Shown: positions 909 through 57,488 of the stretch, piece after piece | How positions within the stretch are numbered: the stretch's first letter is position 1 | Layout: every line of letters begins with the position of its first letter | Origin: Gemmatimonadota bacterium | GTDB taxonomy: Bacteria; Gemmatimonadota; Gemmatimonadetes; Longimicrobiales; Gaopeijiaceae | Direction of reading: 5' to 3' | DNA: 57,488 nucleotides | NCBI GenBank assembly: GCA_022561145.1 | Contig: JADFRS010000004.1 | Span: 1 to 57,488 of the forward strand | Program-made: the position numbers and the translations under genes | Notes under the pieces: model-generated | What the model saw: the letters and a program-made list of their open reading frames with translations, nothing else | What the model was told of the DNA's origin: nothing | The model's database searches: none

Positions 909-930
909 CCGTGGGTCTCGAAAGGGAGCA

Positions 931-1959: not shown

Positions 1960-2008
1960 CCGGCTCGGCCTGATTCGGCCTTATTCGTCGGCCCAAGTTC
2001 GGGTCGAA

Positions 2009-2043
2009 TCGGGCCGAATGGGCCCTATTAGGGCCGAATGGGC
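2009..2043. terminator. Hairpin and direct repeats between convergent genes
   Basis: The arms GGCCCT (2021-2026) and AGGGCC (2030-2035) form a short GC-rich hairpin with an ATT loop, and its 3' part contains the stop codon of the minus-strand dehydrogenase. GGGCCGAATGGGC occurs twice, at 2011-2023 and 2031-2043. There is no T tract on either side. It may act as a bidirectional terminator, but this is weakly supported. Confidence 0.35.
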
Positions 2044-4046: not shown

Positions 4047-4459
4047 CCCTGACTCCCTTCGATGATGATCTCTCTGAGTTCTTCAATACTCGACGACATT
4101 GGAACTTCACCTGCTGGAAGTCCGTTCAACTGGAAGATGTACGCGAGGACCTGGGCATATTCGCGAGGTCGCATTGAACCGGGCCGATCCTCCGGCATCT
4201 TGGTGCTGACCTCCTCGAAAAGGTCCCCCACACTCGCGCCGGCCCATGACTTGATGAACGTGCCCATGAACTCGTCGTCCATGTGGCATTCGGCGCAAAT
4301 GTCACGCATGATCTCCTTGCCACGTTCGGCCTGCTCTTCGGTATAGACGCCCTCCCGGGTCGACGAGGGCGGAGCCACTTGGGCTTCTTGCGCACTCGTG
4401 GGGAGCGCCGTTGCGATAGCCAACATGGCAAGAGGTCCTGCTCTTCGGAGTGCGCTCAT
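4043..4459 (-). CDS. Small secreted c-type cytochrome
   Basis: A 138-residue protein with a signal peptide (residues 1-23) and one haem c motif, CAECH at residues 55-59. A downstream Met in the TKMPEDRPGSMRP segment (about 87-97) could be the sixth haem ligand, and the C-terminal 'YAQVLAYIFQLNGLPAG' is typical of a class I cytochrome c helix. It lies directly upstream of, and overlaps by four bases, the PQQ dehydrogenase gene, and is most likely that enzyme's electron acceptor. The start ATG is preceded by a purine-rich GAGACGGA. Upstream (4460-4638) is the promoter space shared with the divergent peptidase gene. Confidence 0.88.
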   Translation of the reverse strand: MSALRRAGPLAMLAIATALPTSAQEAQVAPPSSTREGVYTEEQAERGKEIMRDICAECHMDDEFMGTFIKSWAGASVGDLFEEVSTKMPEDRPGSMRPREYAQVLAYIFQLNGLPAGEVPMSSSIEELREIIIEGSQG

Positions 4460-4638
4460 TCCGTCTCGGCTCGAAGGTGGGCCCTACCCGACTCGTAAGG
4501 GCTCGCCCAAGGTGTGACCTCGGCCGGACACGGGCAAGATAACGCGGGGCTTCATGTCGGCTCTCGGGGTCGTACCCCTGGCGACGAACCGCACCGCTCC
4601 CCAGCTTTCGTTTCCATCGTTCACCCCGACCGCGGATC

Positions 4639-5823
4639 GTGATGCCACACCGAACGCAGGCACTCGTTGGATCACACAGCTGGCGTGCCGTAGCCCTTTG
4701 TGCCGGTGTGCTCGTCGCACTGCCCAACACGGTGGCCGGCCAAACTCGACTGCCCTGGGAGGCCGTCGCCACCAAGCTCGTCGAGCGCATGGCGATATCG
4801 CCCGGCGAGCGGGTTCTGCTGGTGGCGATGCCCGGGGATTTCAGTCCGCTCGTTCCGGTGCTTCGCCGCCTTGTGGCTCGCGCCGGTGGGCATGATCTGG
4901 GCGCCATCGCGGTCGACGGGTCGCATCCGGCGGGCTGGGAGACGCCGTTCGGACGGGACTTGGAAGGACTGACGGTCCAAGAGATGGGCGAGTACTTCCT
5001 GGAGGTCGACGTGGCGGTGATGTTGCCGGGCGCGGGAACACAGCATGCGCCCTACGCGGCCATGCGGGCGCTGCTCCGTACCGGACGTGCTCGTACGATC
5101 CACTTCCACTGGGCGGGCGCGTACGACTTGCAGGGCAACCTGATGCCGACCGACCGCACGGTTAGCCAGACGTTGCTAAGGGCCTTGCTGCAGACGAACT
5201 ATAGCGCCCTCGCCTTGCACCAGCGTCGGTTCGAGTCGGAGATGCGGGGCCAGGTGATCCGGGTCACCACGCCGCTGGGCACCGATATCACGTTCCAGAT
5301 CGGCGACCGGCCCGTAACCAAGCAGGACGGCGACGCCTCCGCACGCGCGGCCGCAACCGCCCTGAACCTCATCGACCGTGAGATCGAGTTGCCGGCCGGG
5401 GCCATTCGGGTCGCGCCCATCGAAGGGAGCGTGGACGGTCGCATGGCGTTCCCACCCACCGTGTGGCAGGGACAGATGGTGGAGGGGCTCGTGCTCGAGA
5501 TCGCGCGAGGCCGCGTCGTGAACATCACGGCCACCACCGGACTGGAGGCTGTGGAGGCCGAGCTCGATGCGGCGGGCAGCTCGGGTCGGGCGTTTCGGGA
5601 GTTCGCGCTGGGGTTCAATCCCCGTCTGGCGATACCTACCGTGGGCTCGCCCTGGATTCCGTACTATGGCTATGGGGCCGGCGTGGTGCGGCTTTCACTG
5701 GGTGACAACACGGAACTAGGTGGTGCGGTGGAAGGCGGCTACGTGCGGTGGAATTTCTTCCATGACGCGACGGTCACCGTGGGTGAGGTGGTGTGGGTAA
5801 GCGAAGGGCGCCTCGTCCGCTAG
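4639..5823 (+). CDS. Secreted M29-like (thermophilic aminopeptidase family) protein
   Basis: A 394-residue protein with a signal peptide (hydrophobic 17-33, VAGQ cleavage site). The C-terminal half has the layout of M29 metallo-aminopeptidases: 'ELPAGAIRVAPIEGSVDG', then 'EFALGFNPRL', a GVVRLSLGDNTELGG segment and a late FFHDATVTV stretch, matching the family's ligands around the dinuclear metal site. M29 enzymes are normally cytosolic, so a secreted form is unusual but recurs in bacteria with large peptidase sets. Not all metal ligands can be confirmed by eye, so activity is uncertain. The gene is monocistronic and ends inside a strong hairpin. Confidence 0.72.
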   Translation: MMPHRTQALVGSHSWRAVALCAGVLVALPNTVAGQTRLPWEAVATKLVERMAISPGERVLLVAMPGDFSPLVPVLRRLVARAGGHDLGAIAVDGSHPAGWETPFGRDLEGLTVQEMGEYFLEVDVAVMLPGAGTQHAPYAAMRALLRTGRARTIHFHWAGAYDLQGNLMPTDRTVSQTLLRALLQTNYSALALHQRRFESEMRGQVIRVTTPLGTDITFQIGDRPVTKQDGDASARAAATALNLIDREIELPAGAIRVAPIEGSVDGRMAFPPTVWQGQMVEGLVLEIARGRVVNITATTGLEAVEAELDAAGSSGRAFREFALGFNPRLAIPTVGSPWIPYYGYGAGVVRLSLGDNTELGGAVEGGYVRWNFFHDATVTVGEVVWVSEGRLVR

Positions 5824-5836
5824 AACGAGGCGCCCT
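5805..5836. terminator. Perfect 12-bp hairpin spanning the aminopeptidase stop codon
   Basis: AGGGCGCCTCGT (5805-5816) and ACGAGGCGCCCT (5825-5836) form a perfect 12-bp stem with an 8-nt loop containing the TAG stop of the M29-like gene. A second short GGCC-TTC-GGCC hairpin follows. There is no U tract. It lies between convergent genes and probably marks 3' ends on both strands. Confidence 0.6.
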
Positions 5837-5877
5837 CGGCCTTCGGCCGCGGGCGGCGAGGTACCGCCAGGGCCGGC

Positions 5878-7902
5878 CTACTGCGTGACGGCCTTCGGCT
5901 TCTCCCACTTCTTGAACCACTGCCGCAGGAACAGCTGCGTGCGCAGGAAGTTCGAGGGGTTCGAGCTGGTGCCGTGCCACTCGTCCTGATACCGGACCAT
6001 GAGGGTCGGCACCTTCAGCACCTTGAGGGCTTGGTAGAACTCCTCCGTCTGCCCCATCGGCGTACGCAGGTCGTTGTCACCCGTCATGAGCATGGTGGGC
6101 GTCGAGACGTTGCCCACGTACATGATCGGCGAACGGCGCAGGTGCTCGCTCGGGTCGTCCCATGGGAACTCCTTGAAGTTCCTGTACCAGCCCGCGCCGT
6201 CGGTGGTGCCCACGAACGAGAACCAGTTGATCACCGGGCAGTTGGCCGAGGCGGCCGCGAAGCGATCGGTGTGCCCCACGATCCACGAGGTCAGCACACC
6301 TCCGCCCGAGCAGCCATACACGAACAGGTTGTCTTCGTCGATGTAGCCCCGGTCGACGACCAGGTCCACGCCGGCCATCAGGTCGTCGTAGTCGAAACCC
6401 GGATAGGCGTTCTTGATCGAGTTACCGAACACGCTGCCATATCCAGCGCTGCCCCGCGGGTTCGTGTAGAGCACCACATACCCGTTGGCCGCATGGTTCT
6501 GCCAGCCGAAGTTGAAGCCCACTCCGTACATGCCGTGCGGTCCGCCATGGATGGCGAGCATCATCGGGTACGTACGGTTCGGGTCGAAATTCGGTGGCTT
6601 GATGATCCAGCCCTGAATATCGAAATCGTCCACCGACTTGTACCAGATCTCCTCGACCTCACCGAGCGTCACTCCCACGAGCACGTCGGCATTCACGTGG
6701 GTGAGCTGCCGGATGTCATTCGGCCGGTTCACGTTGAATGCGATGACGTCGCCGGGCTGCTGGTAGCTCGAGCGCGTTCCCAAAGCGTTTCCGTGTGAAT
6801 CGATCGACGAAACGCGTAGAATGTGGTTGCCCTCGGTCACCTGCCGGGGTTGCCCGTTCACGGGCGCGAACCAGAAGTTGCTCGTGCCCTTCAGGCTGGC
6901 GTTGAAGTAGACGCCACTACCGTCCTCGGCCCAGGTCACGTTCGCCAAGCGCCGACCGAGCTCTCCTGCGATCCGCCTCGGGTTCGAGCCGTCGGCGTTC
7001 ATGACGTAGAGGCCGTTTTCGCGATAGGTGTCCTCGGAAAAATCCTGGCCCTGGTAGGCGATCAACCGTCCGTCGGGCGAAGGCACGGGGCTCCCGTCCT
7101 GACCCTTCCGGGTCGTGAGCTGGCGAATCGATCCGTCTGCGACCGCAACGCTGTAGATCTCGGACTCGCGCCATATGTATTCGGCGTCTTCGACTCGAAG
7201 CGAGCTGAAGACCAGGCTTTGGCCGTCGGGCATCCACTCCGGGCCACTGTGGTTCCAATCACCGTCCGTGAGCTGGCGTGGGGTGCCACCCTCTGCCGGA
7301 ACGACGAAGATGTGCGTGTACCCGTCATCGATGAAGCCACGGCGATCCCGCTTGTAGTTGAGACGGTCGACGACCTTGGGGTCCTTCGTCCACTTGGCGC
7401 CCTCGGGACGTGCTGGAAGCTTCACATTCCACTCGCTGTCGTCCGAGTCGACGGACATCGTGAACGAGATTTGCGTTCCGTCGGGTGACCAGCGGAGGTT
7501 GCCGGGCGACTTCTCGACCCGCGTGATCTGCGTGATGGAGCCCTCGGCGTCCATCCAGCGCACGAATATTTGACGGCCGTCAGGCTCGCCCTCGTCCATG
7601 AACGCGACCCGCGTCCCGTCCGGGGACCAGATAGGGCTGGAGCCCTCGATGAGCACGCGGCTCCTCGAGCCGTCGGCGTTCATGACCCAGATGGAGGACC
7701 GCCGGCGATCGTTGATCTTGTCCACCCAACCCCGCGTGAACAGGATCTGGCGGCCGTCGGGCGAGACCTGTGGATTAGCCACCGTCTCCCAATCCAGGTA
7801 CGTCTCGAGCGCGAGTGTGCCCTCCGGTTCCTGGGCGGCCGTAAACGACGGCAGAGTCAGGACCAGCGTGAGCAGGGTGAAGATGAAGGTACGGGTCCGC
7901 AT
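5878..7902 (-). CDS. Secreted S9 family prolyl oligopeptidase-like peptidase
   Basis: A 674-residue protein. The ATG at 7902 was chosen because GGAGAG lies 7-12 bases upstream and a signal peptide (MRTRTFIFTLLTLVLTLP...) follows directly; a further 48 in-frame codons upstream look non-coding. A TolB/WD-like propeller with many 'SPDG..i.f' blades (about 30-390) precedes an alpha/beta hydrolase domain. The catalytic triad is Ser532 in GCSGG, Asp611 in GDND and His643 in EWHG. S9C-type enzymes release short peptides or dipeptides, so this one is probably a periplasmic scavenging peptidase. It is transcribed alone, and 270 bases of featureless sequence separate it from the insertion sequence. Confidence 0.9.
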   Translation of the reverse strand: MRTRTFIFTLLTLVLTLPSFTAAQEPEGTLALETYLDWETVANPQVSPDGRQILFTRGWVDKINDRRRSSIWVMNADGSRSRVLIEGSSPIWSPDGTRVAFMDEGEPDGRQIFVRWMDAEGSITQITRVEKSPGNLRWSPDGTQISFTMSVDSDDSEWNVKLPARPEGAKWTKDPKVVDRLNYKRDRRGFIDDGYTHIFVVPAEGGTPRQLTDGDWNHSGPEWMPDGQSLVFSSLRVEDAEYIWRESEIYSVAVADGSIRQLTTRKGQDGSPVPSPDGRLIAYQGQDFSEDTYRENGLYVMNADGSNPRRIAGELGRRLANVTWAEDGSGVYFNASLKGTSNFWFAPVNGQPRQVTEGNHILRVSSIDSHGNALGTRSSYQQPGDVIAFNVNRPNDIRQLTHVNADVLVGVTLGEVEEIWYKSVDDFDIQGWIIKPPNFDPNRTYPMMLAIHGGPHGMYGVGFNFGWQNHAANGYVVLYTNPRGSAGYGSVFGNSIKNAYPGFDYDDLMAGVDLVVDRGYIDEDNLFVYGCSGGGVLTSWIVGHTDRFAAASANCPVINWFSFVGTTDGAGWYRNFKEFPWDDPSEHLRRSPIMYVGNVSTPTMLMTGDNDLRTPMGQTEEFYQALKVLKVPTLMVRYQDEWHGTSSNPSNFLRTQLFLRQWFKKWEKPKAVTQ

Positions 7903-8172
7903 GAAGACTCTCCTCGCAGGGGGTGACGCGTTGCCCGGTGGACGGACAGGCGTGCAGTGCTCTTGTAAGCAGAGCTTCAAAGTACGGGACTGTGGCGGGC
8001 TCGCAACCGTGGGTTGGTCGTGCCGGTGGGGCGCACTTATCGACATCGGGCGGCAGCCGATGGTGACAAACCACGAACCCCTCTGCGGGCCACTGCGGGG
8101 AAAGTGGCTTAACTACTCCTTGTTCAAGAGATTCGGCTCTGACGCTCCAGCGGTGGACCAGAGGTCGGGATA

Positions 8173-19046: not shown

Positions 19047-19069
19047 GAGCGGTCGCGGAGGCACCGCTC
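19047..19069 (+). terminator. Short hairpin after the S9D peptidase
   Basis: GAGCGG (19047-19052) and CCGCTC (19064-19069) begin right after the TAA stop. It is a 6-bp stem with an 11-nt loop and no U tract, so weak evidence. Confidence 0.35.
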
Positions 19070-33360: not shown

Positions 33361-34763
33361 TCGTCGCCATTCAAGTCGAGTCGACCGGCGAGCGCGGCCT
33401 GCGCAGTCGCCAATTGAGTCTCGATGGCGCTCCGCGCCGTTCCGCCCACCGATGCGCGGGCTTCGACGGAGGCCTCCCACGTGAGACCTGCAACCACGTC
33501 GGGTGAGAACTCCGGGTGAGCCTCCCGAAGAGCGTCTTCTGGAAGTTCATGCACGGCTTTCCCCTCGCGCTCGGCGGCCAGCACGAGGTGCGCGACCGCG
33601 TCGTGGGCCTTACGGAACGGGACTCCTTTCTTGACCAGGTAGTCGGCAAGGTCCGTCGCCAGGAGCTGCCAATCGAGTTGGGCGGCGATGTTCTCGGGTT
33701 GGAACTTCACTTCGGCCAGGGTGCCCGTTAAGGCGGGCAGGATGAGAAGAAGTGTGTCGACCGAGTCGAACAGGATGGACTTGTCGTCCTGTAGATCTCG
33801 GTTGTAGCCGGTAGGGAGTCCTTTGATGACAGTCAGGAGCGCCGTGATATTTCCGATGAGGCGGCCGGCCTTGCCGCGCGTGAGTTCGGCGACGTCCGGG
33901 TTTCTCTTCTGTGGCATGAGGCTCGATCCCGTCGAAAACCCGTCCCCGAGTCTCAAGTAGCCGAACTCGCGGCTGCTGAAGATCACGAGGTCTTCACAGA
34001 GCCGAGACAGGCGTGTCCCGATCATGCCGGCTGCGAACACGTAGTCGACCATCCAGTCACGATCGCTGACGGCATCCATGCTGTTTTCCGACAGCCGATC
34101 AAACCCGAGATCGTCCCGGAGCCGATCCCGATCGATGGGAAAGGGGCACCCCGCCAACGCCCCGGAGCCCAGCGGGAGCGAAGACGCCCTCGCGCGGGCC
34201 TGGCGAAGCCGATCACGGTCCCGCATGAGCGGCCAGAAGTGAGAGAGCGCCCAGTGCGCAGCCCGAACCGGCTGGGCCTGCTGGAGGTGAGTGTAGCCGG
34301 GCATGATCAAGTCCACTGATCGGCCGGCCAGAGAGACGAGCCCTCCAAGCACTGCGCTGAGTGCGTCATCCAGAACGCGCGCGGCTTCCATTCCCCACAG
34401 TCGCAGATCGGTGACCACCTGGTCGTTGCGGGACCGGCCCGTGTGCAGCTTGCCGGCGACCTCGCCGATTTCATCATGCAGCAGACGCTCGACGAGTGAA
34501 TGGATATCCTCGTCCGTGTGGCCGCCCACTCCGTCGGCGGCGAGTCGCTCCGCCACCGCATCGAGGCCGGACACCAGTGTCTCGGCCTCCTTCTGTGGAA
34601 TCACTGCGGCACGGCCGAGCTCGCGGGCCCACGCCTGGCTCCCCCTGATATCATGCTCCCAGAGGCGGAAGTCCACGCTGAGGCTGTCGTTGAGAGGAAC
34701 CATTTCGTCGGCCATGCCACCCTCGATCCGACCGGCCCACAGGGGCCGTTCCGGTCCGGACAC
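33357..34763 (-). CDS. argH: Argininosuccinate lyase
   Basis: A 468-residue enzyme splitting argininosuccinate into arginine and fumarate, the last step of arginine synthesis. It shows 'LHTGRSRNDQVVTDLRLW' (about 98-115), 'YTHLQQAQPVRAAHWALSH' (catalytic His), and the fumarase-superfamily signature 'GSSLMPQKRNPDVAE' with the catalytic Ser. The GTG at 34763 is chosen because PLWAGR follows, matching the family N-terminus, and because the restored argG ends four bases upstream. It is the second gene of argGH. Confidence 0.94.
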   Translation of the reverse strand: MSGPERPLWAGRIEGGMADEMVPLNDSLSVDFRLWEHDIRGSQAWARELGRAAVIPQKEAETLVSGLDAVAERLAADGVGGHTDEDIHSLVERLLHDEIGEVAGKLHTGRSRNDQVVTDLRLWGMEAARVLDDALSAVLGGLVSLAGRSVDLIMPGYTHLQQAQPVRAAHWALSHFWPLMRDRDRLRQARARASSLPLGSGALAGCPFPIDRDRLRDDLGFDRLSENSMDAVSDRDWMVDYVFAAGMIGTRLSRLCEDLVIFSSREFGYLRLGDGFSTGSSLMPQKRNPDVAELTRGKAGRLIGNITALLTVIKGLPTGYNRDLQDDKSILFDSVDTLLLILPALTGTLAEVKFQPENIAAQLDWQLLATDLADYLVKKGVPFRKAHDAVAHLVLAAEREGKAVHELPEDALREAHPEFSPDVVAGLTWEASVEARASVGGTARSAIETQLATAQAALAGRLDLNGDD

Positions 34764-34767
34764 CTGG

Positions 34768-36020
34768 CTAGGCGGCCGCCGTAGCGTCGAGCAACTCTCT
34801 GGCCCGCTCGCGCGCGTCTTCCGAGGCCCGATCCCTATCCCCACCCACACGTGCCGGCAAGCCGAAGAGTTTGATGAATCCGGACGCGTCCGCGTGGTCG
34901 TAGGTGTCCGACTCTCCGAACGAGGCGAGCCCTAAATCGTACAGCGAGTGAGGGCTGGTACGAGAGACGACCATCGCGGACCCTTGTAGAGCTTCATGCG
35001 AACCGATCCGGTGACCGTGCGCATGAGGACCTTGCCAAAGGCGTCGAGCGCCTCGCGTTCAGGAGTCCACCACCACCCTTCGTAGACGAGGTCGGCGTAG
35101 CGGGCCGCGAGCGAGTCCTTCATGGCGAGCGCTCTCCTATCGAGCGTCAGTTGCTCGAGCTCGCGGAGGGCGGTGTACAGGATCGTACCACCCGGTGTCT
35201 CGTAGAGTCCGCGCGATTTCATGCCCACCAGGCGATCCTCAACGAGGTCGATACGGCCTACGCCGTGTTGCGACCCGATTGAATTCAACGTGGTGAGCAA
35301 GGACACCGCGCCGAGGTCGGTGCCGTTCACCGAGACCGGCGTGCCCTCCTCGAAGCCAATCTCAACGTACTCGGGCTTGTCTGGCGCCAACTCGGGCGAA
35401 AGGGTCCACAGGTATACGGATTCGTCAGGTTCGTAAGCCGGATCCTCGAGCGGGCCACCCTCGTGAGAGATGTGCCACAGGTTCTCATCCCGTGAGTAGA
35501 GCTTGGTTGCGTCGACCCCATCCATGGGGATGTTACGCTCCTGGGCGTAAGCCAGTGCTTCCTCGCGTGAATGGAGGTCCCACTCCCTCCACGGAGCGAT
35601 CACTTTCAAGTCAGGAGCAAGCGCGACGAAGGTAAGCTCGAAGCGCACCTGGTCGTTCCCCTTCCCGGTGCAACCGTGCGCGAGGGCATCGGCATCGACC
35701 GCACGTGCGATCTCAACCATACGGCGGGCGATGATAGGCCGCGCCATAGAGGTTCCCAGCAGGTACTTGCGCCCGTAGACCGCACCCGAACGCAAGGTGG
35801 GCCAGACGAAATCCTCGACGAATTCTTGCTTGAGGTCTTCCCCGAAGAACTGAGACGCGCCTGAAGCCTTGGCCCTTGCTTCCAGGCCCTCGAGCCCTCC
35901 CGGTTGTCCAACGTCGGCCGCGACACATATCACCTCGGCGTCATAGGTCTCGCGGAGCCACGGCACCACGACAGAGGTGTCGAGCCCACCGGAGTATCCG
36001 AGAACAACCTTGAGTGACAT
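34768..36020 (-). CDS. argG: Argininosuccinate synthase, interrupted by an apparent one-base deletion
   Basis: Joins citrulline and aspartate using ATP. From the ATG at 36020: '[16 protein letters not shown]' (P loop, 7-22), '[13 protein letters not shown]', '[14 protein letters not shown]' and '[16 protein letters not shown]' are all intact. As given, the frame ends early at 34932 with a nonsense tail after RMKLYKG. The neighbouring frame picks up exactly there with the normal C-terminus ('[18 protein letters not shown]', then '[13 protein letters not shown]') and ends at 34768. One base is missing in or next to AAGGGTCC (about 34978-34985). Restored length is about 417 residues, normal for the family. 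The cause is either a sequencing/assembly error in a G run or a real mutation. Confidence 0.88.
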
Positions 36021-36066
36021 CGTGCGTGCCCCTAGGCGGTTAAGGAATCAGGCGAGAATATAGCAC

Positions 36067-47043: not shown

Positions 47044-47270
47044 CCGTGTCACAAGAAGCTGCACCGTCGACTACGGTCGACGAAGCAAGGATGCCGGACG
47101 AACCGGCAGTTTCAGTTTCGGCTCCCTCAAGCATGACGAAGAGTTCCCCGTTTCCTCTGATCTCATGACGTTGTCGGACAACGCACACGTCCTCGATTGA
47201 GGGTCGGCACAACGGGGGGGGGACATTGAGTGGGTGGCGAATATCGGCGAGATGCGAGAGACTAGTGCGA

Positions 47271-49376
47271 GTGAACTCCAACCATGATATCCGAACGCTG
47301 GCGAGACGGGGGCTGGGCGTACTCGTGCTCGCCCTCTCGTTCCTGCCCGTTTTTCACGTTGTCGATTCGGACTCCGAAGCACCGTTCCGGATAGCGAACG
47401 TCGAGATCGCCGAAGTGACTCTGCGGCTTGCCTGGTGGGGCACTCTCAGCACCGTGCTGGTCGGGGTGGTCATGGCCACTCTGTTCAAGGGTGGACCGGT
47501 GCGGCGTCTGACCGAGAAGGCGGGGAGACTTCTATGTACCCCCAAGCTACCTGTGTTCACGGTAGCGGTATCCTTGCTTGCGGCCGGGCTGGCGCTTTTC
47601 ACATGGCGCTACCTGTACCTTGGGCTCCTCACCAACGTCGATGAGATCGCGTCTACGGTACAGGCTCGCTACATGGCCGCGGGAATGCTCGCCGGAAGCC
47701 TGCCCACATTTCCTGAGGCGTGGTTGATCCCCAACATGCTCATGGTCGAGCAGGGCTTCGTGTCGCAATATCCGCCCACGCACCTCGCCTTATTGGCTTT
47801 GTTCATCCGTATGGACGCGCCCTGGCTCATTGGTGCGATCTCGCTCGGCACGATGGCCGGATTAGTTGCGCTTTCACTGCACAGGCTCTTGCCGGACCAC
47901 CCTGCCACCGCGCGCGCAGCCGCGCTCCTCGTGGCAGCGAGTCCGTTTCTGGTGTTCTTGGGCGGTGGGGCGCTGAGCCACCTGTCCGCCGGGGCCCTGG
48001 GCGCCTTGGTTCTCTACGCTGCCCTACGCGCCCGGGACGGACACGCGGCTTGGGGAGTGTTGGCCGGCGCCGCAGTCGGAGCCATGGTTTCGTCCCGCCC
48101 CTTCATTGGATTGATCCTGGGCACCCTATTTACACTGGGCCTCTGGGTACCGGCGGCGGTCTCACCCGATGCCGAACATCGGCAGCGCGGGAGAGAGGCG
48201 CCGCTCTCCTGGTTTCTCCGAAGATCGGCGGCCGCTCTGATGGGTGGAGCGCCCTTCGCCGTTCTCCTGGGCTGGTTCAATCATCGACTCTTCGGCGGAG
48301 CAACCACCTTTGGATATCTCGCGGCCTTTGGTGAAGACCACGCCCTGGGTTTTCATCGAGATCCATGGGGATCTCCCTACGGCGTGGCAGAAGCCATGGC
48401 GTTTACCTCGACGGACATGCTAGCAATCGGGATCCAGTTCCTCGAGACCTCGATTCCGTTAACCGCCCTGATAGGACTCTATCTCCTCACTACGCGGAAA
48501 CTGCCGAAGGGGGCGTCCATGCTCCTCGCCTGGGCGATGATCCCGGTCGTCGGCAACATGTTCTACTGGTTTCATTCGAGCCGGATGCTGTTCGAGACCA
48601 CACCCGCTTGGATTGCCCTTGCCGTTCTTGCGGCGGTCGAGTTGGGACGTGCCGATCTCCAGGGCTCGCCCCTCGGAGGGAGGCTCCGAGAGGCCGCGGC
48701 TTGGAGTTGTGCGGCGGCCCTGGTGGCCGCCCCTGTCTGGGGAATTCCCAGCCGTTGGTCGACCTACTCTTGGACCGAGGAGACGCTGTCTCGCATCATC
48801 GTGCCTCAAACGCCGACGTCGGGTCCCGCCATCGTCTTTACGCATTCATCCTGGAACGAGCGCATCAGCGCCACGCTCCAGGGTGCGGGCGGCATGCGTC
48901 AGGACAGCGTGATCTCCGCGCTCCGTCGCAACACCAGCTGTTCCCTGCACCGATTTGCCGAGGCACGCGAGGCCTTGGTGAGACGCGGAGAGGTAGACGT
49001 TACGCTTCCGCCTGTGGATCTCGAGCAGACGTCGGGCACCCCGACGGACATCGAGCGCCAGTCACAAGCTGCTGGAACGACCGTGCGCCTGCGCGCGGGA
49101 GAACCCCTCACGTCGGGATGCCTTCGCGAGTTGCGCGCCGACCGCTTCGGCGCCGTGGCTCTCGCCCCGTTGCTGTGGCAGGGGGATCTGCCAGGCCTGG
49201 GCGGAGAAGGCATACTGTTCGTTCGCGACCTCGGCCCGGAGAAGAACGCGGCAATCTTAGAGGCTTTTCCAGGCAGAAACGCCTACGTGTTCGTGCCCAA
49301 GACCGTGGAGGCGGCTCCTGAATTGGTGGCGTATGACGAAGCGATGAACGTGCTGTGGGGAAAGGAACCTCAATGA
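47271..49376 (+). CDS. Polytopic membrane protein, GT-C glycosyltransferase-like
   Basis: About 701 residues with roughly 11 membrane spans in the first 480 residues and a soluble C-terminal domain of about 220 residues. The first extracytoplasmic loop has 'LTNVDEIASTVQARYMAAG' with acidic residues, followed by a 'QGFVSQYPPTHLALLALF' segment, as in GT-C enzymes that use lipid-linked sugars. I do not recognise the exact family. Start uncertain: GTG at 47271 or 47265, or TTG at 47226. It overlaps the downstream methyltransferase by four bases, so it belongs to the glycan cluster. Confidence 0.7.
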   Translation: MNSNHDIRTLARRGLGVLVLALSFLPVFHVVDSDSEAPFRIANVEIAEVTLRLAWWGTLSTVLVGVVMATLFKGGPVRRLTEKAGRLLCTPKLPVFTVAVSLLAAGLALFTWRYLYLGLLTNVDEIASTVQARYMAAGMLAGSLPTFPEAWLIPNMLMVEQGFVSQYPPTHLALLALFIRMDAPWLIGAISLGTMAGLVALSLHRLLPDHPATARAAALLVAASPFLVFLGGGALSHLSAGALGALVLYAALRARDGHAAWGVLAGAAVGAMVSSRPFIGLILGTLFTLGLWVPAAVSPDAEHRQRGREAPLSWFLRRSAAALMGGAPFAVLLGWFNHRLFGGATTFGYLAAFGEDHALGFHRDPWGSPYGVAEAMAFTSTDMLAIGIQFLETSIPLTALIGLYLLTTRKLPKGASMLLAWAMIPVVGNMFYWFHSSRMLFETTPAWIALAVLAAVELGRADLQGSPLGGRLREAAAWSCAAALVAAPVWGIPSRWSTYSWTEETLSRIIVPQTPTSGPAIVFTHSSWNERISATLQGAGGMRQDSVISALRRNTSCSLHRFAEAREALVRRGEVDVTLPPVDLEQTSGTPTDIERQSQAAGTTVRLRAGEPLTSGCLRELRADRFGAVALAPLLWQGDLPGLGGEGILFVRDLGPEKNAAILEAFPGRNAYVFVPKTVEAAPELVAYDEAMNVLWGKEPQ

Positions 49377-50044
49377 CACGGCAGCAGCCTCCAAGAGACC
49401 CCGATATGTCCATGGAATCGATGCAGGATGATACCGGGCTCAAGAGGTTGCTGACGTTCTCACTTTTCTACGACGCCTTGCAAGCTATCGCGGGGGCGCG
49501 ACGCGCCAAGACCATGCTGGCCGCGAATTTCTGGAAGGTGGAGCCGGGTGAGAGACTGGTCGACGTTGGATGTGGCACGGGTGACATCGCGGATTACCTT
49601 CCTGCCGGCGTCGAGCTCGTTGGATTCGACGTAAATGAAAGATACATCGATACCGCTCGAAAGCGGTACGGTTCGAGGGGGCGTTTCCTTGTCGGAGGGG
49701 CGGCTGATGTCTACGACGATATCGGACCCGGGACGGTCGATATCGTAACTTGCAATGGCGTCCTGCATCACCTCGACGAGGACCGAATAGCAGAGGTCTT
49801 GGAACTCGCCGTCAAGGTCCTCAAGCCTGACGGGAGAATGTTTTGCGTCGAGCCTTGCTTCACGCCCGACCAAAGTCGTGTGTCGAGGTGGCTGATGAAG
49901 CAGGACAGGGGCCAGGGCATAAGGGACCGAGAAGGGTGGAGTGAAGTTACGCGTGGCTTCTTTCCAAAAACCGAATTGACTATTGTTTCCGGGCTTGTGC
50001 GAATTCCGTACGTACACGTCATAATCGCAGGTTCGTTTTCATGA
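49373..50044 (+). CDS. Class I SAM-dependent methyltransferase
   Basis: A 223-residue methyltransferase with motif I 'LVDVGCGTGDIADYL' (about 57-71), motif II 'ELVGFDVNERYI' and a post-motif 'DIVTCNGVLHHLD' (Methyltransf_11 pattern). The substrate is unknown. ATG overlaps the previous stop (ATGA) and follows AAAGGA. Codon third positions are noticeably less GC-rich than in the core genes, a trait shared with the next four genes. Confidence 0.88.
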   Translation: MTRQQPPRDPDMSMESMQDDTGLKRLLTFSLFYDALQAIAGARRAKTMLAANFWKVEPGERLVDVGCGTGDIADYLPAGVELVGFDVNERYIDTARKRYGSRGRFLVGGAADVYDDIGPGTVDIVTCNGVLHHLDEDRIAEVLELAVKVLKPDGRMFCVEPCFTPDQSRVSRWLMKQDRGQGIRDREGWSEVTRGFFPKTELTIVSGLVRIPYVHVIIAGSFS

Positions 50045-50075
50045 AAACGCTTCACACGGCACCAGGCGGAGGACG

Positions 50076-50570
50076 ATGATTACCGCAGACGTGAGGCTGG
50101 GAGACGGTGTCGTGATTCACCACGCCGCCTTGGTCAACCTTTATGGCTGCGAAATCGGGTCCGGCTCGACAATCGGCACGTTCGTAGAGATTCAAGGAGG
50201 CGCGCTCATCGGGGAGAACTGCAAGATTTCGTCACATACGTTCATATGTGAAGGGGTGACCATCGAAGATGGCGTGTTTGTCGGTCACGGCGTGATGTTC
50301 ATCAACGACATGCGTCCCCGCGCGGTTACCCGGAGCGGCGACCTGAAGGCGAAGACGGATTGGCAGATGGAGACGACCTTGATACGCACTCGGGCCTCAA
50401 TCGGTACTCACGCGACCATCCTGGCCGGCCTAACAGTTGGCGAGGGTGCGCTGATCGGGGCTGGAGCCGTGGTGACGAAGGACGTTCCGAACTACGCGAT
50501 CGTGGCTGGGGTGCCGGCGGAAATCATCGGCGACACGCGAAAGCAAGACGCTTCGATTGATCGCTCATGA
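50076..50570 (+). CDS. Left-handed beta-helix (hexapeptide) N-acetyltransferase, WlbB/FdtC-like
   Basis: A 164-residue trimeric acyltransferase with hexapeptide turns throughout ('IGSGSTIGTFVEIQGGALIGENCKI', 'IEDGVFVGHGVMFINDMRPRA') and a C-terminal 'IGAGAVVTKDVPNYAIVAGVPAEIIG'. The internal loop 'FINDMRPRA' matches sugar-nucleotide 3-N-acetyltransferases. Together with the downstream oxidoreductase and aminotransferase it fits a UDP-3-amino-sugar pathway. It overlaps the next gene by four bases. Confidence 0.88.
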   Translation: MITADVRLGDGVVIHHAALVNLYGCEIGSGSTIGTFVEIQGGALIGENCKISSHTFICEGVTIEDGVFVGHGVMFINDMRPRAVTRSGDLKAKTDWQMETTLIRTRASIGTHATILAGLTVGEGALIGAGAVVTKDVPNYAIVAGVPAEIIGDTRKQDASIDRS

Positions 50571-50941
50571 ACCGGAGTGCCCTTGCTCTGGTTGCGTTGA
50601 GCGCTATTCTCACCGCCGTCGCCAATATCACGCTGCGGGTAGGGGTGCTGAAAGCCGGCGGGCTCAGCTTGAGTCGTGAACGATTCTGGTCGGACGCAGT
50701 GGCGCTCACCTCTCAGCCGATGTTTGTCGTCGGGTTCATCTGCTACGGTCTGGCGGCGGTCGTTTGGTTGAGCGTCTTGCCGAGAGTAGACATCAGCGTC
50801 AGTTACCCGCTTCTCGTCGGCCTTGCATTCGTGCTCGTCGCGTTGGGGTCCGTGATCGTTTTCCATGAGGGTCTGCCTTGGGACAAGGTTGCGGGTATGG
50901 CGCTGATCCTGGCCGGCGTGGCGCTCGTCGCACAAGCTTGA
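50567..50941 (+). CDS. Small EamA/SMR-like membrane protein (ArnE/F-type)
   Basis: A 124-residue four-span protein (spans about 5-25, 45-66, 70-92, 100-122) of the small multidrug resistance/EamA superfamily. The context among sugar genes suggests a half-flippase for a lipid-linked sugar, as with ArnE/ArnF, but no partner subunit is visible; it could dimerise. Its ATG overlaps the acetyltransferase stop. Confidence 0.75.
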   Translation: MNRSALALVALSAILTAVANITLRVGVLKAGGLSLSRERFWSDAVALTSQPMFVVGFICYGLAAVVWLSVLPRVDISVSYPLLVGLAFVLVALGSVIVFHEGLPWDKVAGMALILAGVALVAQA

Positions 50942-50951
50942 GGAGACTCGA

Positions 50952-51959
50952 GTGCTGAGCGTCGGCGTTATCGGATACGGATACTGGGGACCCAACCTGG
51001 TCCGGAATTTCCAGGAGTCGGATGTGTCGCGCGTTACGATGGTCAGTGACCTCGATGAGGCGCGCCTGGGCCTCGTCCGGACCCGCTATCCGTCGGTTCA
51101 GACTACGTTGGAACATCGGGCCCTGATCACCAGTGATTCAGTCGATGCCGTGGTCATCGCAACGCCCGTCCACACACATTTTGATCTCGCGATGTCGGCC
51201 CTGAAGGCCGGCAAGCACGCGTTTGTGGAAAAGCCGCTCACTCAGACTTCCGACCAGGCGATGGAGTTGATCGCCGAGGCGCAGGCACGCGGCTTGGTGC
51301 TCATGGTGGATCACACGTTCGTCTACACCGGCGCTGTCAGGAAGCTGCGAGAGTTGGTCACGAGTGGTGAGTTGGGGAACATTTACTATTACGACTCGAA
51401 GCGCGTAAACCTCGGCCTCTTCCAGCCGGATGTGAATGTCATTTGGGATCTTGCGGTCCACGATCTCGCGATCATGGCCTATGTCTTTCAGCAGCAGCCG
51501 ATCGCCGTATCGGCTACGGGAATCAGTCACGTGCGTGGAAAGCCTGCGAATGTGGCCTATCTGTCGATCTACTTCGAGACTCAGATGATGGCGCATGTGA
51601 ATGTCAGTTGGCTCTCGCCAGTGAAGCTACGGCAGACCCTGGTCGGTGGCGATCGAAAGATGGTCGTATACGACGACTTGGAGCCCAGTGAGAAGATCAA
51701 GGTGTACGACAAAGGCATCGAGCTGACATCGAGAGAGAGCATCTACGAGACGTTGGTCGGGTATCGCACGGGTGATATGTGGGCACCGAAGTTGGATGCC
51801 GTGGAGGCTCTGAGTCGCGAAGCTCGACACTTCGTCGACTGCGTGGAGAACGGTGTGACACCGGAGAGCGGCGGTGAGGCGGGACTCTACGTAGTGCGTA
51901 TCTTGGAGGCCGCCACAATCTCCATGGAGGAACGGGGCGCCCCTGTGGACCTCACATAG
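50952..51959 (+). CDS. Gfo/Idh/MocA family oxidoreductase (WlbA-like)
   Basis: A 335-residue NAD(P)-dependent sugar oxidoreductase. 'VGVIGYGYWGPNLVRNF' (4-20) is the Rossmann GxGxxG, 'FVEKPLTQT' (about 92-100) carries the catalytic Lys-Pro, and 'WDLAVHDLAIMAYVF' (about 161-175) the catalytic Asp/His. WlbA oxidises the C3 hydroxyl of UDP-GlcNAcA before transamination; that role is inferred from the next gene. GTG start; 10 bases after the membrane protein. Confidence 0.9.
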   Translation: MLSVGVIGYGYWGPNLVRNFQESDVSRVTMVSDLDEARLGLVRTRYPSVQTTLEHRALITSDSVDAVVIATPVHTHFDLAMSALKAGKHAFVEKPLTQTSDQAMELIAEAQARGLVLMVDHTFVYTGAVRKLRELVTSGELGNIYYYDSKRVNLGLFQPDVNVIWDLAVHDLAIMAYVFQQQPIAVSATGISHVRGKPANVAYLSIYFETQMMAHVNVSWLSPVKLRQTLVGGDRKMVVYDDLEPSEKIKVYDKGIELTSRESIYETLVGYRTGDMWAPKLDAVEALSREARHFVDCVENGVTPESGGEAGLYVVRILEAATISMEERGAPVDLT

Positions 51960-51978
51960 AGCGGAGTTCGGAGATCGG

Positions 51979-53082
51979 ATGATCCCTTTTCTGGATCTGA
52001 AGGCCCAATATGCGAGCATCAGGGAGGAGCTGGAGGCTGGAGTCCTGAAGGCGCTCGCGAGCACTCAATACGCGCTCGGTAGCGAAGTGGCTGCCTTCGA
52101 AGAGGAATTCGCTGAGTTTTGCGACGCCGAGTTTGCCGTCGCAATGAACTCGGGGACCAGCGCCCTGCATGTCGCGCTGCTCGCAGCCGGCGTTGGGCGC
52201 GGCGACGAGGTCATCACGGTGGCTAGCACGTTCGTGGCGACCGTTGCCGCGATCGACTACGTGGGCGCGCGCCCCGTGTTTGTCGATGTCGAGCCGGGTA
52301 CGCTGAACATTGATACCAGCAGGATCATGGCCGCGATCACTGATCGGACAAGGGCCATCCTACCGGTGCATCTCCACGGACATCCTTCGGATATGGATCC
52401 CATCATGGAGATCGCGGCGACACATGGACTGCGCGTGATCGAGGATGCCGCCCAAGCGCACGACTCTGAATACAAAGGCCGTCGCGTGGGGAGCATCGGT
52501 GATCTTGGTTGTTTCAGTTTCTACCCGGGCAAGAATCTCGGTGGGGTGGGTGAAGGTGGCATGCTCGTCACCAATAGCGGTGACTACGCTGATGTTGCCC
52601 GCAAACTCCGGGATTGGGGACAGTCTGCCAAGTACCATCACGATGTGAAGGGCTTCAACTACCGAATGGATGGCATTCAGGGCGCGGCCTTACGAGTCAA
52701 GCTGCGACACCTCTCGGCCTGGACTGAAGCTCGTAGGCAAAACGCGGAGATATACAACCAATTGTTGACCGATGCGGACGTGGTGACGCCCGTCGAGGAG
52801 CCCTACGCACGTCACGTGTATCATGTGTACTCCATTCGGGCACCCGAGCGCGACGCGCTCCGAAAGACGCTGCAGGATAATGGTGTCCAGAGCGGCATTC
52901 ATTACCCGATTCCCGTTCATATGCAGAAGGCCTATGAAGAGTTCGGCTTCGCGGAGGGTGATCTTCCGATCACGGAGCGGGCCGCGAAGGAGCAATTATC
53001 GTTACCAATGTTCGCGGAGGTGACGGAGGCGCAGATCCAGGCGGTTTGCAGGGTCATCCACGAGCAGCCCTCCGCGGATTAG
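51979..53082 (+). CDS. DegT/DnrJ/EryC1/StrS sugar aminotransferase
   Basis: A 367-residue PLP aminotransferase of nucleotide sugars with 'MNSGTSALHVALLAAGVGRGDEVI' (about 55-78), 'VIEDAAQAHDSEYKGRRVGSIGDLGCFSFYPGKNLGGVGEGGML' region containing Asp and the PLP Lys (FYPGKNLG, about 186), and 'MDGIQGAALRVKLRHL'. Close in pattern to WlbC/FdtB-type 3-aminotransferases. It sits 19 bases after the oxidoreductase that would supply its keto-sugar. A marked rise in GC follows its stop. Confidence 0.92.
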   Translation: MIPFLDLKAQYASIREELEAGVLKALASTQYALGSEVAAFEEEFAEFCDAEFAVAMNSGTSALHVALLAAGVGRGDEVITVASTFVATVAAIDYVGARPVFVDVEPGTLNIDTSRIMAAITDRTRAILPVHLHGHPSDMDPIMEIAATHGLRVIEDAAQAHDSEYKGRRVGSIGDLGCFSFYPGKNLGGVGEGGMLVTNSGDYADVARKLRDWGQSAKYHHDVKGFNYRMDGIQGAALRVKLRHLSAWTEARRQNAEIYNQLLTDADVVTPVEEPYARHVYHVYSIRAPERDALRKTLQDNGVQSGIHYPIPVHMQKAYEEFGFAEGDLPITERAAKEQLSLPMFAEVTEAQIQAVCRVIHEQPSAD

Positions 53083-53083
53083 G

Positions 53084-54139
53084 ATGCGACGCGATCGAGA
53101 TGATCCGCGGCAAAGCCGCGGTACGCTGCCCGGCCTCGACCCCCGGCGGTTGGTCCGCCTGATGGAGGAATCCATCACCGCCTGTGAACTCGATCTATCC
53201 GGCCTGGTTGTCCTCACCGAGGCCGCGACCGGCCCTTACATGGTGACCCCTATTCTCGCCGCCATGGCAGGCGCCACCCGTGTTCATGCCCTGACCCGAA
53301 CGACGCGCTACGGCTCCGCTGAAGAGGTCGAGGCTCAAACCCTCGCGGTGGCCTCCCTCGCCGGAGTCGCTCAGCGCATCGACGTCACCACGCACAAGAC
53401 CGAGGAGATCGTCGCGTCCGCGGACATCGTCACCAACAGCGGCCATGTTCGCCCCATCGACGCATCCATGATCGGATGGATGAAGACGGCAGCTGTCATC
53501 CCCCTGATGTACGAAGCATGGGAGCTTCGCCCCGGCGATCTCGACCTTGCGGCCTGCCACGAGCGTGGGATTCTCGTCGCGGGCACCAATGAGCGCCATC
53601 CGGCCGTCGATGTCTTCGGCTACCTCGGCGTTATGGCCATCAAGCTACTCCTCGACGCCGGGGTTGCCGTGTACGACAGCATGATTCTGCTTCTTTGCGA
53701 CAATCCGTTTGCACCGTTCATCGTCCGTGGCCTCGAAGGCGCCGGGGCCCGGGTCACCCTCCAGTCGGCTCTCTCCGAGGACGACCGAGGAAACTTCGAC
53801 GCCGTCGTCGTCGCCATCCAGCCTGGGGCCGAAGCTGTCCTGGGCGCGCAGGCGCTCCCGGTCCTGTCCCGTTGGCCGGGAGTCGTTGTGGCTCAATTCT
53901 GGGGCGATATCGACCGGGGCGCGCTCGAAGGTGCGGGGATCCCGTTCTGGCCGTCCACACCTCCGGACCCGGGCCATATGGGCGTATTGCCTTCCCAGGT
54001 CGGCCCGGAGCCGATCGTGCGGCTCCAGGCCGGCGGCCTCAAGGTCGGTCAGCTGCTCACCAGGTCCCGCAGTGCGGTGGACACGGACGGTTTCGAGGAG
54101 GGAGGCTTCGTCCAGCTCGTGCCGCCGGGCTCTTCGTGA
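53084..54139 (+). CDS. Unknown protein with two Rossmann-like halves, glycan cluster
   Basis: A 351-residue protein I cannot assign. It has two nucleotide-binding-like segments: 'GLVVLTEAATGPYMVTPILAAMAGA' (about 40-64) with 'RYGSAEEVEAQ', and 'VYDSMILLLCDNPFAPFIVRGLEGAGARVTL' (about 196-226). Between them 'ADIVTNSGHVRPIDASMI' and 'GTNERHPAVDVFGYLG' recall 2-hydroxyacid/homocysteinase-type dehydrogenases. It may be an NAD-dependent enzyme of sugar or acyl-group synthesis. A perfect hairpin (53105-53121) lies inside the first codons, so the real start may be downstream. Confidence 0.6.
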   Translation: MRRDRDDPRQSRGTLPGLDPRRLVRLMEESITACELDLSGLVVLTEAATGPYMVTPILAAMAGATRVHALTRTTRYGSAEEVEAQTLAVASLAGVAQRIDVTTHKTEEIVASADIVTNSGHVRPIDASMIGWMKTAAVIPLMYEAWELRPGDLDLAACHERGILVAGTNERHPAVDVFGYLGVMAIKLLLDAGVAVYDSMILLLCDNPFAPFIVRGLEGAGARVTLQSALSEDDRGNFDAVVVAIQPGAEAVLGAQALPVLSRWPGVVVAQFWGDIDRGALEGAGIPFWPSTPPDPGHMGVLPSQVGPEPIVRLQAGGLKVGQLLTRSRSAVDTDGFEEGGFVQLVPPGSS

Positions 54140-54256
54140 CGTTCTTTCCCCCACCACAGCAGTGTTCTTCCCCGCCGAGGTGGGCGTATCTTGGGCTTGG
54201 GGTTCGGGTCGCCGAGTAATGGACTTGTTCAGTGTGGACTTTCCGAGGGGGTGAGC

Positions 54257-54931
54257 GTGGAGGGAGGAAGCCGTGACGGTGGGACCATCATCGGACCCAG
54301 CCGCGTGGGCGAGAATACCCTGGTCGCCGAAGGGGTCATCATAGGTCATCCGGCCAAGGATTCGATGTTGGAGGCGCGGGATTTCACTTCCAGTCGCGGC
54401 GCGCAGGTTGGGCGGGGGTGCATCTTGCGGGCCGGGACCATCATCTATGAGGACGCTGTCCTCGGAGATGACGTACAGACCGCCCATCATGTCGTCGTCC
54501 GCGAGGGTGCGCGGGTGGGAGACGGGTGCGTGTTGGGAAACAACACCGTTGTGCGGGAAGGCGCCGAACTGGGCCGCAATGTGCGCGTCATGGAGTCCGT
54601 GGTCATCTCGGAGGGAGCCCTCCTGGAGAACGACATCTTCATTGGGCCGGGGGTCCAGTTCACGGCAGGCCGCTTCATGACGGGGGCGATGCAAGCAGCC
54701 GGAAAGATGAGCGCCGAGGAGGCCTCGTCGGAGGAGGGACGCTACTGGAACGGTGCTTCCGTCACCGTCGAGGAGGGTGCCCGGATCGGTGCCAACGCCG
54801 TCATTCTGGCGGGTGTACGGCTCGGTCGTGGTTGTATCGTCGCAGCCGGATCGGTCGTCTCCAACGATGTTCCCGCAGGGGGCGTGGTGATGGGAAACCC
54901 AGGCCGATTGATGAAGCGAGGGACGCCGTGA
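54257..54931 (+). CDS. Hexapeptide-repeat acyltransferase
   Basis: About 224 residues built almost wholly of hexapeptide turns ('IIGPSRVGENTLVAEGVIIG', 'VGRGCILRAGTIIYEDAVLGDDV', 'VGDGCVLGNNTVVREGAELGRNVRV') ending 'ILAGVRLGRGCIVAAGSVVSNDVPAGGVVMGNP', the acyl-CoA site. A second acyltransferase in the cluster; it could add the FkbH-derived acyl group. GTG at 54257 is chosen for GAGGGG six bases upstream; GTG at 54251 is possible. It overlaps the next gene (GTGA). Confidence 0.85.
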   Translation: MEGGSRDGGTIIGPSRVGENTLVAEGVIIGHPAKDSMLEARDFTSSRGAQVGRGCILRAGTIIYEDAVLGDDVQTAHHVVVREGARVGDGCVLGNNTVVREGAELGRNVRVMESVVISEGALLENDIFIGPGVQFTAGRFMTGAMQAAGKMSAEEASSEEGRYWNGASVTVEEGARIGANAVILAGVRLGRGCIVAAGSVVSNDVPAGGVVMGNPGRLMKRGTP

Positions 54932-55698
54932 CCGTGGATTCAGCCTCCGGGGGAACCACGGGCAGGTCGGATCCCAAGGCCGACCTGGACGGGGTCTCCG
55001 GCGAGTACATCGAACCGACGCCCGATCGTGTGGTCGACCAGAAGCTGTTCGAATACATCTCGGATTATGTCATCGGGCGGCTCGAGGGGACGCGGGTGTT
55101 GGAGCTGGGAGTCGGAGATCAGGCCTGGACCTCCAAGCTGCTCGAGCGATTCCCCGACGTCACCACCGTGGACGGCTCCGCCAGGCTGCTGGACGTCGCG
55201 CGCCGACACCTCCAGGACAACAGCAGGTGGACCCCGGTGCATGCACTCTTCGAGGAGTACACCCCCGACGAGCCATTCGATCTGGTCCTGGCCACATACG
55301 TCCTGGAGCATGTCGACTCGGTAGAGGCCATTCTGGAGCGGGCGAGGCAGCACTGGCTGGTTCCGGGTGGGCGCATCGCCGTGGCTGTCCCGCACGCCTT
55401 GAGTCTGCATCGGCGGCTCGCAGTTACCATGGGGCTGGCGAACCACGTCAGTGAACTCGGAGAGACCGACGCGCGGATGGGCCACCGCCGCTGCATGACC
55501 TGGCAGGAGTTGGAAGCCGACTTGGTGAACGCCGGGTTCGAGGTGGTTGAGCGCAAAGGACTGCTCACCAAGGCCCTGCCCAACAGCGCACTCACGGCCT
55601 GCACGGATGAGCAGCTCAAGGGGCTGGTCGAGTTGGGCCTGGAGCTGCCGATCGAGTACTCGGCGGCGATCTACTTCCAGGCCAGGGTGAAATCCTGA
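54928..55698 (+). CDS. Class I SAM-dependent methyltransferase
   Basis: A 256-residue enzyme with 'RVLELGVGDQAWTSKLLERF' (about 53-72, motif I), 'VTTVDGSARLLDVAR' (motif II) and 'FDLVLATYVLEHVDSVEAIL'. The GTG start overlaps the acyltransferase stop by four bases (GTGA). Part of a tightly coupled acyltransferase-methyltransferase-VOC-FkbH set. O-methylation of a sugar or acyl group is a reasonable guess. Confidence 0.88.
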   Translation: MTVDSASGGTTGRSDPKADLDGVSGEYIEPTPDRVVDQKLFEYISDYVIGRLEGTRVLELGVGDQAWTSKLLERFPDVTTVDGSARLLDVARRHLQDNSRWTPVHALFEEYTPDEPFDLVLATYVLEHVDSVEAILERARQHWLVPGGRIAVAVPHALSLHRRLAVTMGLANHVSELGETDARMGHRRCMTWQELEADLVNAGFEVVERKGLLTKALPNSALTACTDEQLKGLVELGLELPIEYSAAIYFQARVKS

Positions 55699-56108
55699 TC
55701 TCTGGGGCGAAGTTCGCCCATGTGGGCATCGCGGTCAGGTCGATCGAGGAGACGCTCGCATCGTTCACGGCACTGCTGGGTTACGAGCTGTACTCGGGCC
55801 CCTTCGTGGATCCCATCCAGCGCGTGGAGGTCTGCTTTCTCAAGCGCCCGTCCTCCCCGGAAGATCCGGTGCTCGAGCTCGTCGCCCCCGCCGGTGACGA
55901 CTCCCCCGTCGAAAAGGTCCTCGAGCGCGGTGGCGGGGGCTACCACGTGTGCTTCGAAGTCGAGGAGCTGGAAGAAGCGATCAAGGAGGCCCGGGCGGCG
56001 AGCTGCCTCGTCATCAACGGCCCACATCCAGCGGTTGCATTCGAGGGGCGGCGGATCGTCTGGCTCTATACACCGGCGAAATTGCTCGTGGAGCTGGTCG
56101 AGAAGTGA
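55695..56108 (+). CDS. VOC (glyoxalase/epimerase-like) family protein, probable CTG start
   Basis: 137 residues of the vicinal-oxygen-chelate fold: 'KFAHVGIAVRSIEETLASFTALLGYEL', later 'YHVCFEVEELEEAI', closing 'IVWLYTPAKLLVELVEK'. Metal ligands would be His in HVGIAV, His in YHVC and the late Glu. The first strand lies upstream of the first GTG (55722), and the only start-like codon before it is CTG at 55695, which overlaps the previous stop (CTGA) and has AGGG eight bases upstream. Resembles methylmalonyl-CoA epimerase-like enzymes; the substrate is unknown. Confidence 0.78.
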   Translation: MISGAKFAHVGIAVRSIEETLASFTALLGYELYSGPFVDPIQRVEVCFLKRPSSPEDPVLELVAPAGDDSPVEKVLERGGGGYHVCFEVEELEEAIKEARAASCLVINGPHPAVAFEGRRIVWLYTPAKLLVELVEK

Positions 56109-57488
56109 ACGACCCCACACCGACCGACTACGGGTCGCTGAAGCGAGAGATCGAGCAGGCTCTCGAGGAGGCCGATCACATCAGAGCCAGGCGCCTGCTT
56201 GCGGAAGCATGGAGAGGCGACCCGGGCCCGGCGAGAGCCGGCTTCGTTTTATCCCGGGCAGAGCGCGTCGAGGGCGGCGCCTCGAGCGGCGCATGCAGGG
56301 TCGCGCTGCTGCGCTCCTTTACGGTCGAGCCGCTCGTCCCCCTCCTGCGCGCGTCGGCCTGGGTGGGTGGGGTACCGCTCGAGGTTCACGTAGGGCCGTT
56401 CGGCGCGTGGGCCCAGGAGATCCTGGATCCTGAAAGCGCCCTCTACCAATTCGGACCCGACATCGCCGTGCTCGCCGTGCAGGCGAGGGACATCGCCCCC
56501 GATCTATGGGAGCGGTTCGCGGAGCTGTCCGCCGAAGAAGTCGAAGCAGCGATCGACCGCGTCGCCGGCGAGTACGGCTCGGTGATCGAGGCGTTTCGCC
56601 ATCATAGCCGCGCGTCGCTGATCGTCCACACCCTCGAACTCCCCCCCGCACCACGCCAGGGTGTGCTGGACGCCCAGCTCGCGACGGGACAGAACGCGGC
56701 GATCGAGGCAGTCAACAGTCGCCTTCTCGAGCTGGCGGCCGAGCAGACCGGGGTCTATCTGCTGGACTACGACGGCCTTGTCGCACGCCATGGACGGCTG
56801 GCATGGCACGAGCCCCGCAAGTGGCTGACCACCCGCCTTCCCATCGCTCCGGACTGTCTGATGCACCTCGTACAGGAGTGGCTCCGGTTCATCTACCCTC
56901 TGACGGGGCGGAGCTGCAAGGCCCTGGTGCTGGACCTGGACAACACGCTGTGGGGCGGAGTGGTCGGTGAGGACGGTGTCGAGGGCCTTACGCTGGGCCT
57001 CGAATACCCCGGCGCCGCCTTCAGAGACCTCCAGCGCGTCGCACTCGACCTGTTCCACCGGGGAATCCTGCTCGCGGTATGCAGCAAGAACAACGAAGAC
57101 GATGCCATGGAGGCCTTCGATGGCCATCCCGGGATGCTCCTCGAGCGGGAGCACATCGCGGCCTGGCGCGTCGACTGGACGGATAAGGCCACCAACCTGC
57201 GCCAGATCGCCGAGGAACTGAACATCGGCTTGTCTGAACTGGCCTTCCTGGATGACAACCCCACCGAACGACACTGGATTCGGGAGCAACTGCCGGAGGT
57301 CCATGTGATCGAGTTGCCGGCAGATCCCTTCGAGTACGCGGAAGCTGTCAGCAACGTGTTCGTTGTAGAACGTTGCGAACCCCAGGTCACCAACACGAGG
57401 CGAACCGAAGTTGTACATCGTGACGCTAATGTTGTCGTCCTCTTGCGCGATGTCCAGCGCCGCGAACGTCGCTATCGCCCCTCCCAGG
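56105..57488 (+). CDS. FkbH-like HAD enzyme, C-terminus lost at an abrupt junction near 57345
   Basis: GTG at 56105 overlaps the VOC stop (GTGA). The N-terminus (about 70-260: 'VALLRSFTVEPLVPLLRASAWVGGVPLEVHVGPFG', 'ALYQFGPDIAVLAVQARD') is the FkbH N-terminal domain. The HAD-IIIC domain has DxDxT as 'LVLDLDNTLWGGVVGEDG' (Asp277, Asp279), 'LLAVCSKNNEDDAMEAF' and 'ELAFLDDNPTERHWIREQLPEV'. FkbH proteins load glyceryl or lactyl groups from a phosphorylated C3 precursor onto a carrier. Recognisable sequence ends at 'PFEYAEAV' (about 57352); the frame stays open to the window edge, but beyond it is antisense to a lipase. Confidence 0.85.
   Translation, partial: MNDPTPTDYGSLKREIEQALEEADHIRARRLLAEAWRGDPGPARAGFVLSRAERVEGGASSGACRVALLRSFTVEPLVPLLRASAWVGGVPLEVHVGPFGAWAQEILDPESALYQFGPDIAVLAVQARDIAPDLWERFAELSAEEVEAAIDRVAGEYGSVIEAFRHHSRASLIVHTLELPPAPRQGVLDAQLATGQNAAIEAVNSRLLELAAEQTGVYLLDYDGLVARHGRLAWHEPRKWLTTRLPIAPDCLMHLVQEWLRFIYPLTGRSCKALVLDLDNTLWGGVVGEDGVEGLTLGLEYPGAAFRDLQRVALDLFHRGILLAVCSKNNEDDAMEAFDGHPGMLLEREHIAAWRVDWTDKATNLRQIAEELNIGLSELAFLDDNPTERHWIREQLPEVHVIELPADPFEYAEAVSNVFVVERCEPQVTNTRRTEVVHRDANVVVLLRDVQRRERRYRPSQ
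57345..57488 (-). pseudogene. Fragment of a class 3 lipase
   Basis: Read from the window edge on the minus strand: LGGAIATFAALDIAQ, then VTMYNFGSPRVGDLGFATFYN and EHVADSFRV. This is the class 3 lipase pattern in which GHS-LGGA holds the nucleophile and 'y.fGsPRvGn..Fa..yN' follows. After SFRV the frame runs on for 280 codons as pure antisense of fkbH, so the lipase is cut at about 57345. Its start lies outside the window. Confidence 0.75.

Follow-up and report, generated by a model that had tools for sequence, protein, structure and literature searches.

Layout of the contig end

The window, i.e., the whole stretch of DNA analyzed (57,488 bp), corresponds to the entire contig G000:C217, which belongs to a draft genome (4.1 Mb, 252 contigs, 89% complete). 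Close to its end, a plus-strand gene for a protein of the FkbH type changes abruptly into a piece of a class 3 lipase gene on the minus strand (Table 1). The joint lies within about 150 bases of the contig end, and the feature under study is confined to the last 158 bases. The lipase piece makes up the terminal ~138–154 bases, about the length of one short read. It is probably foreign to the genome and directly adjoins the end of the contig; as this end is the contig's own, the lipase is cut on both sides.

Table 1. Positions of the features at the joint between the fkbH-type gene and the lipase fragment.
Feature	Position	Strand	Basis
5' part of an fkbH-type gene, truncated (FkbH_N and HAD-IIIC phosphatase-like domain)	56105–57352	+	Profile, PDB, relatives
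Junction zone with overlapping homologies (up to ~18 nt, possibly microhomology)	57335–57352		Lipase Pfam limit versus FkbH limits
Class 3 lipase fragment (PF01764 positions 72–125 of 140)	57335–57487	-	Pfam, PDB, relatives
Contig end (window = whole contig G000:C217)	57488		

The contig upstream of the joint

The contig is genuine upstream of the joint. Positions 3–8081 are 91% identical to a genus-mate (G001), and positions 19069–49360 are collinear with contig G001:C32 at 77–91% identity. A stretch of ~2.6 kb at 33396–36043 is present in the window and missing from the otherwise collinear G001:C32.

The region from 49361 to 57352 is a genus-variable cassette for sugar or small-molecule modification, and fkbH is its last gene. 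The cassette encodes two methyltransferases, two hexapeptide acyltransferases, a Gfo/Idh/MocA oxidoreductase, a DegT-type aminotransferase, a methylmalonyl-CoA-epimerase-like protein, and FkbH. It also encodes a protein of 351 residues (53084–54139) that matches no Pfam or NCBIfam family. No close counterpart of any cassette protein was detected in the stretch of G001 that was searched, and at the place of the cassette this genome carries other genes, including one whose product combines glycosyltransferase and methyltransferase domains. A 716-residue protein encoded at 47226–49376, where the variable cassette begins, is 78% identical in the genus-mate and has no Pfam or NCBIfam match; its family is thus conserved but unnamed.

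The FkbH side of the joint

The FkbH reading frame opens with a GTG codon and encodes an N-terminal domain (PF21211) and a HAD-IIIC core, which is matched by TIGR01681 and TIGR01686. These two domains, together with a cassette of methyltransferases, an aminotransferase, and acyltransferases, resemble the known FkbH/HAD-IIIC proteins (TIGR01686, PF21211). Unlike members of this family, the protein has no C-terminal domain (~210 residues), since other sequence takes over at this point of the contig. TIGR01686 aligns to residues 270–413 with its positions 3–138 of 323 (E = 1.8e-39); the score of 135.8 bits stays below the curated cut-off of 146.65, and the full HAD plus C-terminal domain is not covered, because the truncation of the gene shortened the profile match. 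The structure 3slr aligns up to residue 416. The 414 amino acids encoded by the fkbH part contain no internal stop, as expected for a live gene.

The position at which FkbH homology is lost was delimited with 25 relatives from related and distant genomes that were matched using phmmer. The best local alignments of these relatives end between 57313 and 57430, with a few drifting beyond 57370, and the limit is at 57346–57364 for most full-length relatives. Overall, homology on the plus strand runs to about 57349–57352. Five of the 25 relatives match the HAD part only and were dropped; all of the remaining 20, two of which run off their contig or stretch, continue beyond residue ~417 of the window protein by ~130–340 residues. 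Thirteen of these 20 were used for a tail profile (the seven omitted comprise the two that run off and five left out by our choice), and their aligned tails share a mean identity of 41% and 18 invariant columns and include a KTNQFNLTTRR block of the C-terminal domain.

With leave-one-out profiles, stubs of only the first 45 tail residues were recognized in 13 of 13 cases (24.1–42.2 bits), whereas none of the six frames of 57341–57488 scored above -0.9 bits. The loss of FkbH homology is therefore not due to insufficient power. A preliminary description of this DNA had placed the end of fkbH homology near 57352, and the FkbH signal is indeed absent after about this position, with no continuation in any frame.

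The lipase side and the joint

On the minus strand, 51 residues match the Lipase_3 family with an E-value of 1e-11 and a score of 45.3 bits, well above the gathering cut-off of 22, and a PDB search gave class 3 lipases as the best matches, among them the secretory lipase LIP1. The fragment resembles Lipase_3 (PF01764) from the LGGA that follows the nucleophile elbow through FGSPRVG to FRV, but unlike a complete member of the family it has lost both its start and its end. As it begins after the nucleophile serine and gives way to antisense FkbH after FRV, it does not hold the complete Ser-Asp-His catalytic triad of Lipase_3. From 19 loci examined, 12 lipase relatives were obtained at E <= 0.01. 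All 12 continue beyond the aligned part, and the motif RFVNNND is found in 11 of them. The lipase homology extends to 57335 with the Pfam profile, and single relatives cease to align at 57353–57371. Past the joint, the lipase frame reads antisense FkbH. Its codons are exactly in phase with those of the fkbH frame, and both frames are open through the joint.

The class 3 lipase core that had been proposed for the last ~140 bases of the minus strand is thus borne out by the Pfam match. The same description had both genes broken at one point; both are cut in the middle of a domain, and their homologies share up to ~18 nt (57335–57352) and have no single base at which they meet. This overlap may represent microhomology.

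We also considered a foreign base composition of the tail as evidence and rejected it. The tail has a GC content of 58.7% as compared to a contig mean of 62.7%, which corresponds to the 18.7th percentile of 2488 windows of the same size, and both GC and GC3 are inside the range of the contig.

Search for the missing halves and for a lipase donor

The FkbH tail profile gave no match at E <= 10 elsewhere in the bin. As a positive control, the same profile detected the FkbH tail in three of four control genomes; two of the four tail places in control genomes (G036:C30 and G021:C190) were absent from the query alignment. The genus-mate G001 had no FkbH match and therefore cannot show the intact arrangement. 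At the DNA level, no second match of the last 389 bases of the contig was found in the bin.

The lipase fragment likewise had no match elsewhere in the bin above a weak one of 24 residues (E = 0.085). The other Lipase_3 matches of the bin (C139 and C73 above the cut-off, C225 and C127 below it) were considered as the missing half and rejected, as they are separate genes. Among 395 genomes of the phylum, only the window itself matched at E <= 1e-6 and none of the other 394 did. Apart from the copy in this genome itself, a search among 98 genomes gave only a single weak match (E = 1.8e-4, 45% identity over 42 amino acids). One plasmid protein matches the lipase at 44%, and a plasmid search with the surroundings of the joint gave matches on the FkbH side only. 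An exact DNA match to a 29-base piece of the lipase was not present in the viral collection. In summary, neither the bin nor the phylum, viral, phage, and plasmid searches yielded an intact gene from which the lipase fragment could stem. Both partners are broken mid-domain and have no detectable remainder in this genome, although this absence is not a proof, as the bin is only 89% complete.

Origin of the joint

Two unrelated genes that are cut mid-domain at about a read length from a contig end, with no remainders found, argue for a chimeric read or misjoin, and we consider it very probable that the switch from fkbH to lipase is a chimera formed at the contig end. We infer this misjoin from the assembled sequence. 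The abrupt change of genes is most likely an ordinary artifact and not biology, with the last ~140 bases coming from a different organism. The preliminary description had left the choice between a real inversion or insertion and a misassembly; the evidence favors misassembly, and an inversion is least likely, because after it both missing halves would still be present in the genome, where they were not found.

The arrangement resembles chimeric contig ends described for short-read metagenome assemblies (PMC8172020) in that the added stretch is foreign, about as long as a read, and situated at the extreme end, with both coding sequences cut midway. In the mock-community test of that work, chimeric contig sequences were reported to be located always at contig ends (PMC8172020). 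The chimeric case presented there joined two closely related genomes (PMC8172020), unlike the present joint, whose two sides are unrelated save for the possible short microhomology; the likeness is one of sequence.

The contig-end chimera would have arisen as follows. The genuine contig reaches the middle of fkbH, and the last ~138–154 bases, which are antisense to a lipase fragment, would stem from a different organism of the community that was sequenced. Template switching at a short shared sequence during library preparation or PCR could have generated one or a few chimeric reads that joined the two; alternatively, a wrong path may have been taken in the assembly graph. The contig would have stopped there because nothing consistent extended it, and the true 3' end of fkbH was presumably either not assembled or not binned.

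A real junction, in which an insertion, inversion, or deletion placed part of a lipase gene beside a truncated fkbH and so made a pseudogene, is improbable. The gene belongs to a block that differs from the genus-mate, with collinearity ending at 49360, which is the kind of place that is prone to rearrangement, and the tail GC content would also fit. Against this, searches of the bin recovered the missing half of neither gene, the joint happens to lie very close to the contig end, the uninterrupted fkbH part looks like a live gene, and the lipase gene would have to be broken mid-domain as well. It is similarly improbable that a recent rearrangement brought a foreign lipase fragment into fkbH of this strain and inactivated the end of the genus-variable cassette, which would serve surface sugars or small molecules; a real joint would amount to no more than the ordinary disruption of a gene.

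Insertion of a lipase-carrying mobile element or prophage into fkbH, with the contig ending just inside the element, is very improbable: lipases that are 37–56% identical over the matched parts do exist on contigs of the viral collection, but the fragment matches no phage record at E = 0.01, neither a target-site duplication nor a repeat or terminal inverted-repeat pair resembling an element end was seen at the joint (where only one edge would lie on the contig), and the lipase is cut mid-domain, whereas the boundary of an element seldom falls in the interior of a cargo gene.

With the contig-end chimera as the preferred reading, the joint calls for no biological mechanism, and the finding matters for data quality only. 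In an automatic annotation, an FkbH-like protein would receive an artificial tail, and a lipase would be reported of a kind of which the genome otherwise shows no sign.

Assembler word length and the route to the chimera

A comparison of contig ends in the bin (n = 122, with 2 masked and unusable) revealed one real terminal overlap. It was found in contig G000:C205 (L111, L171), which has 16,885 bases and whose ends overlap exactly by 127 bases, indicating that this contig is probably circular and thus a plasmid, phage, or small replicon. From this one contig, the last k of the assembler appears to have been 127. A simple graph-branch model with this k predicts exactly 127 foreign bases, whereas homology gives ~138–154. 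This difference tentatively favors a dead end caused by a chimeric read over a graph branch. The mismatch in length hence counts against one mechanism of chimera formation, but not against a chimeric read.
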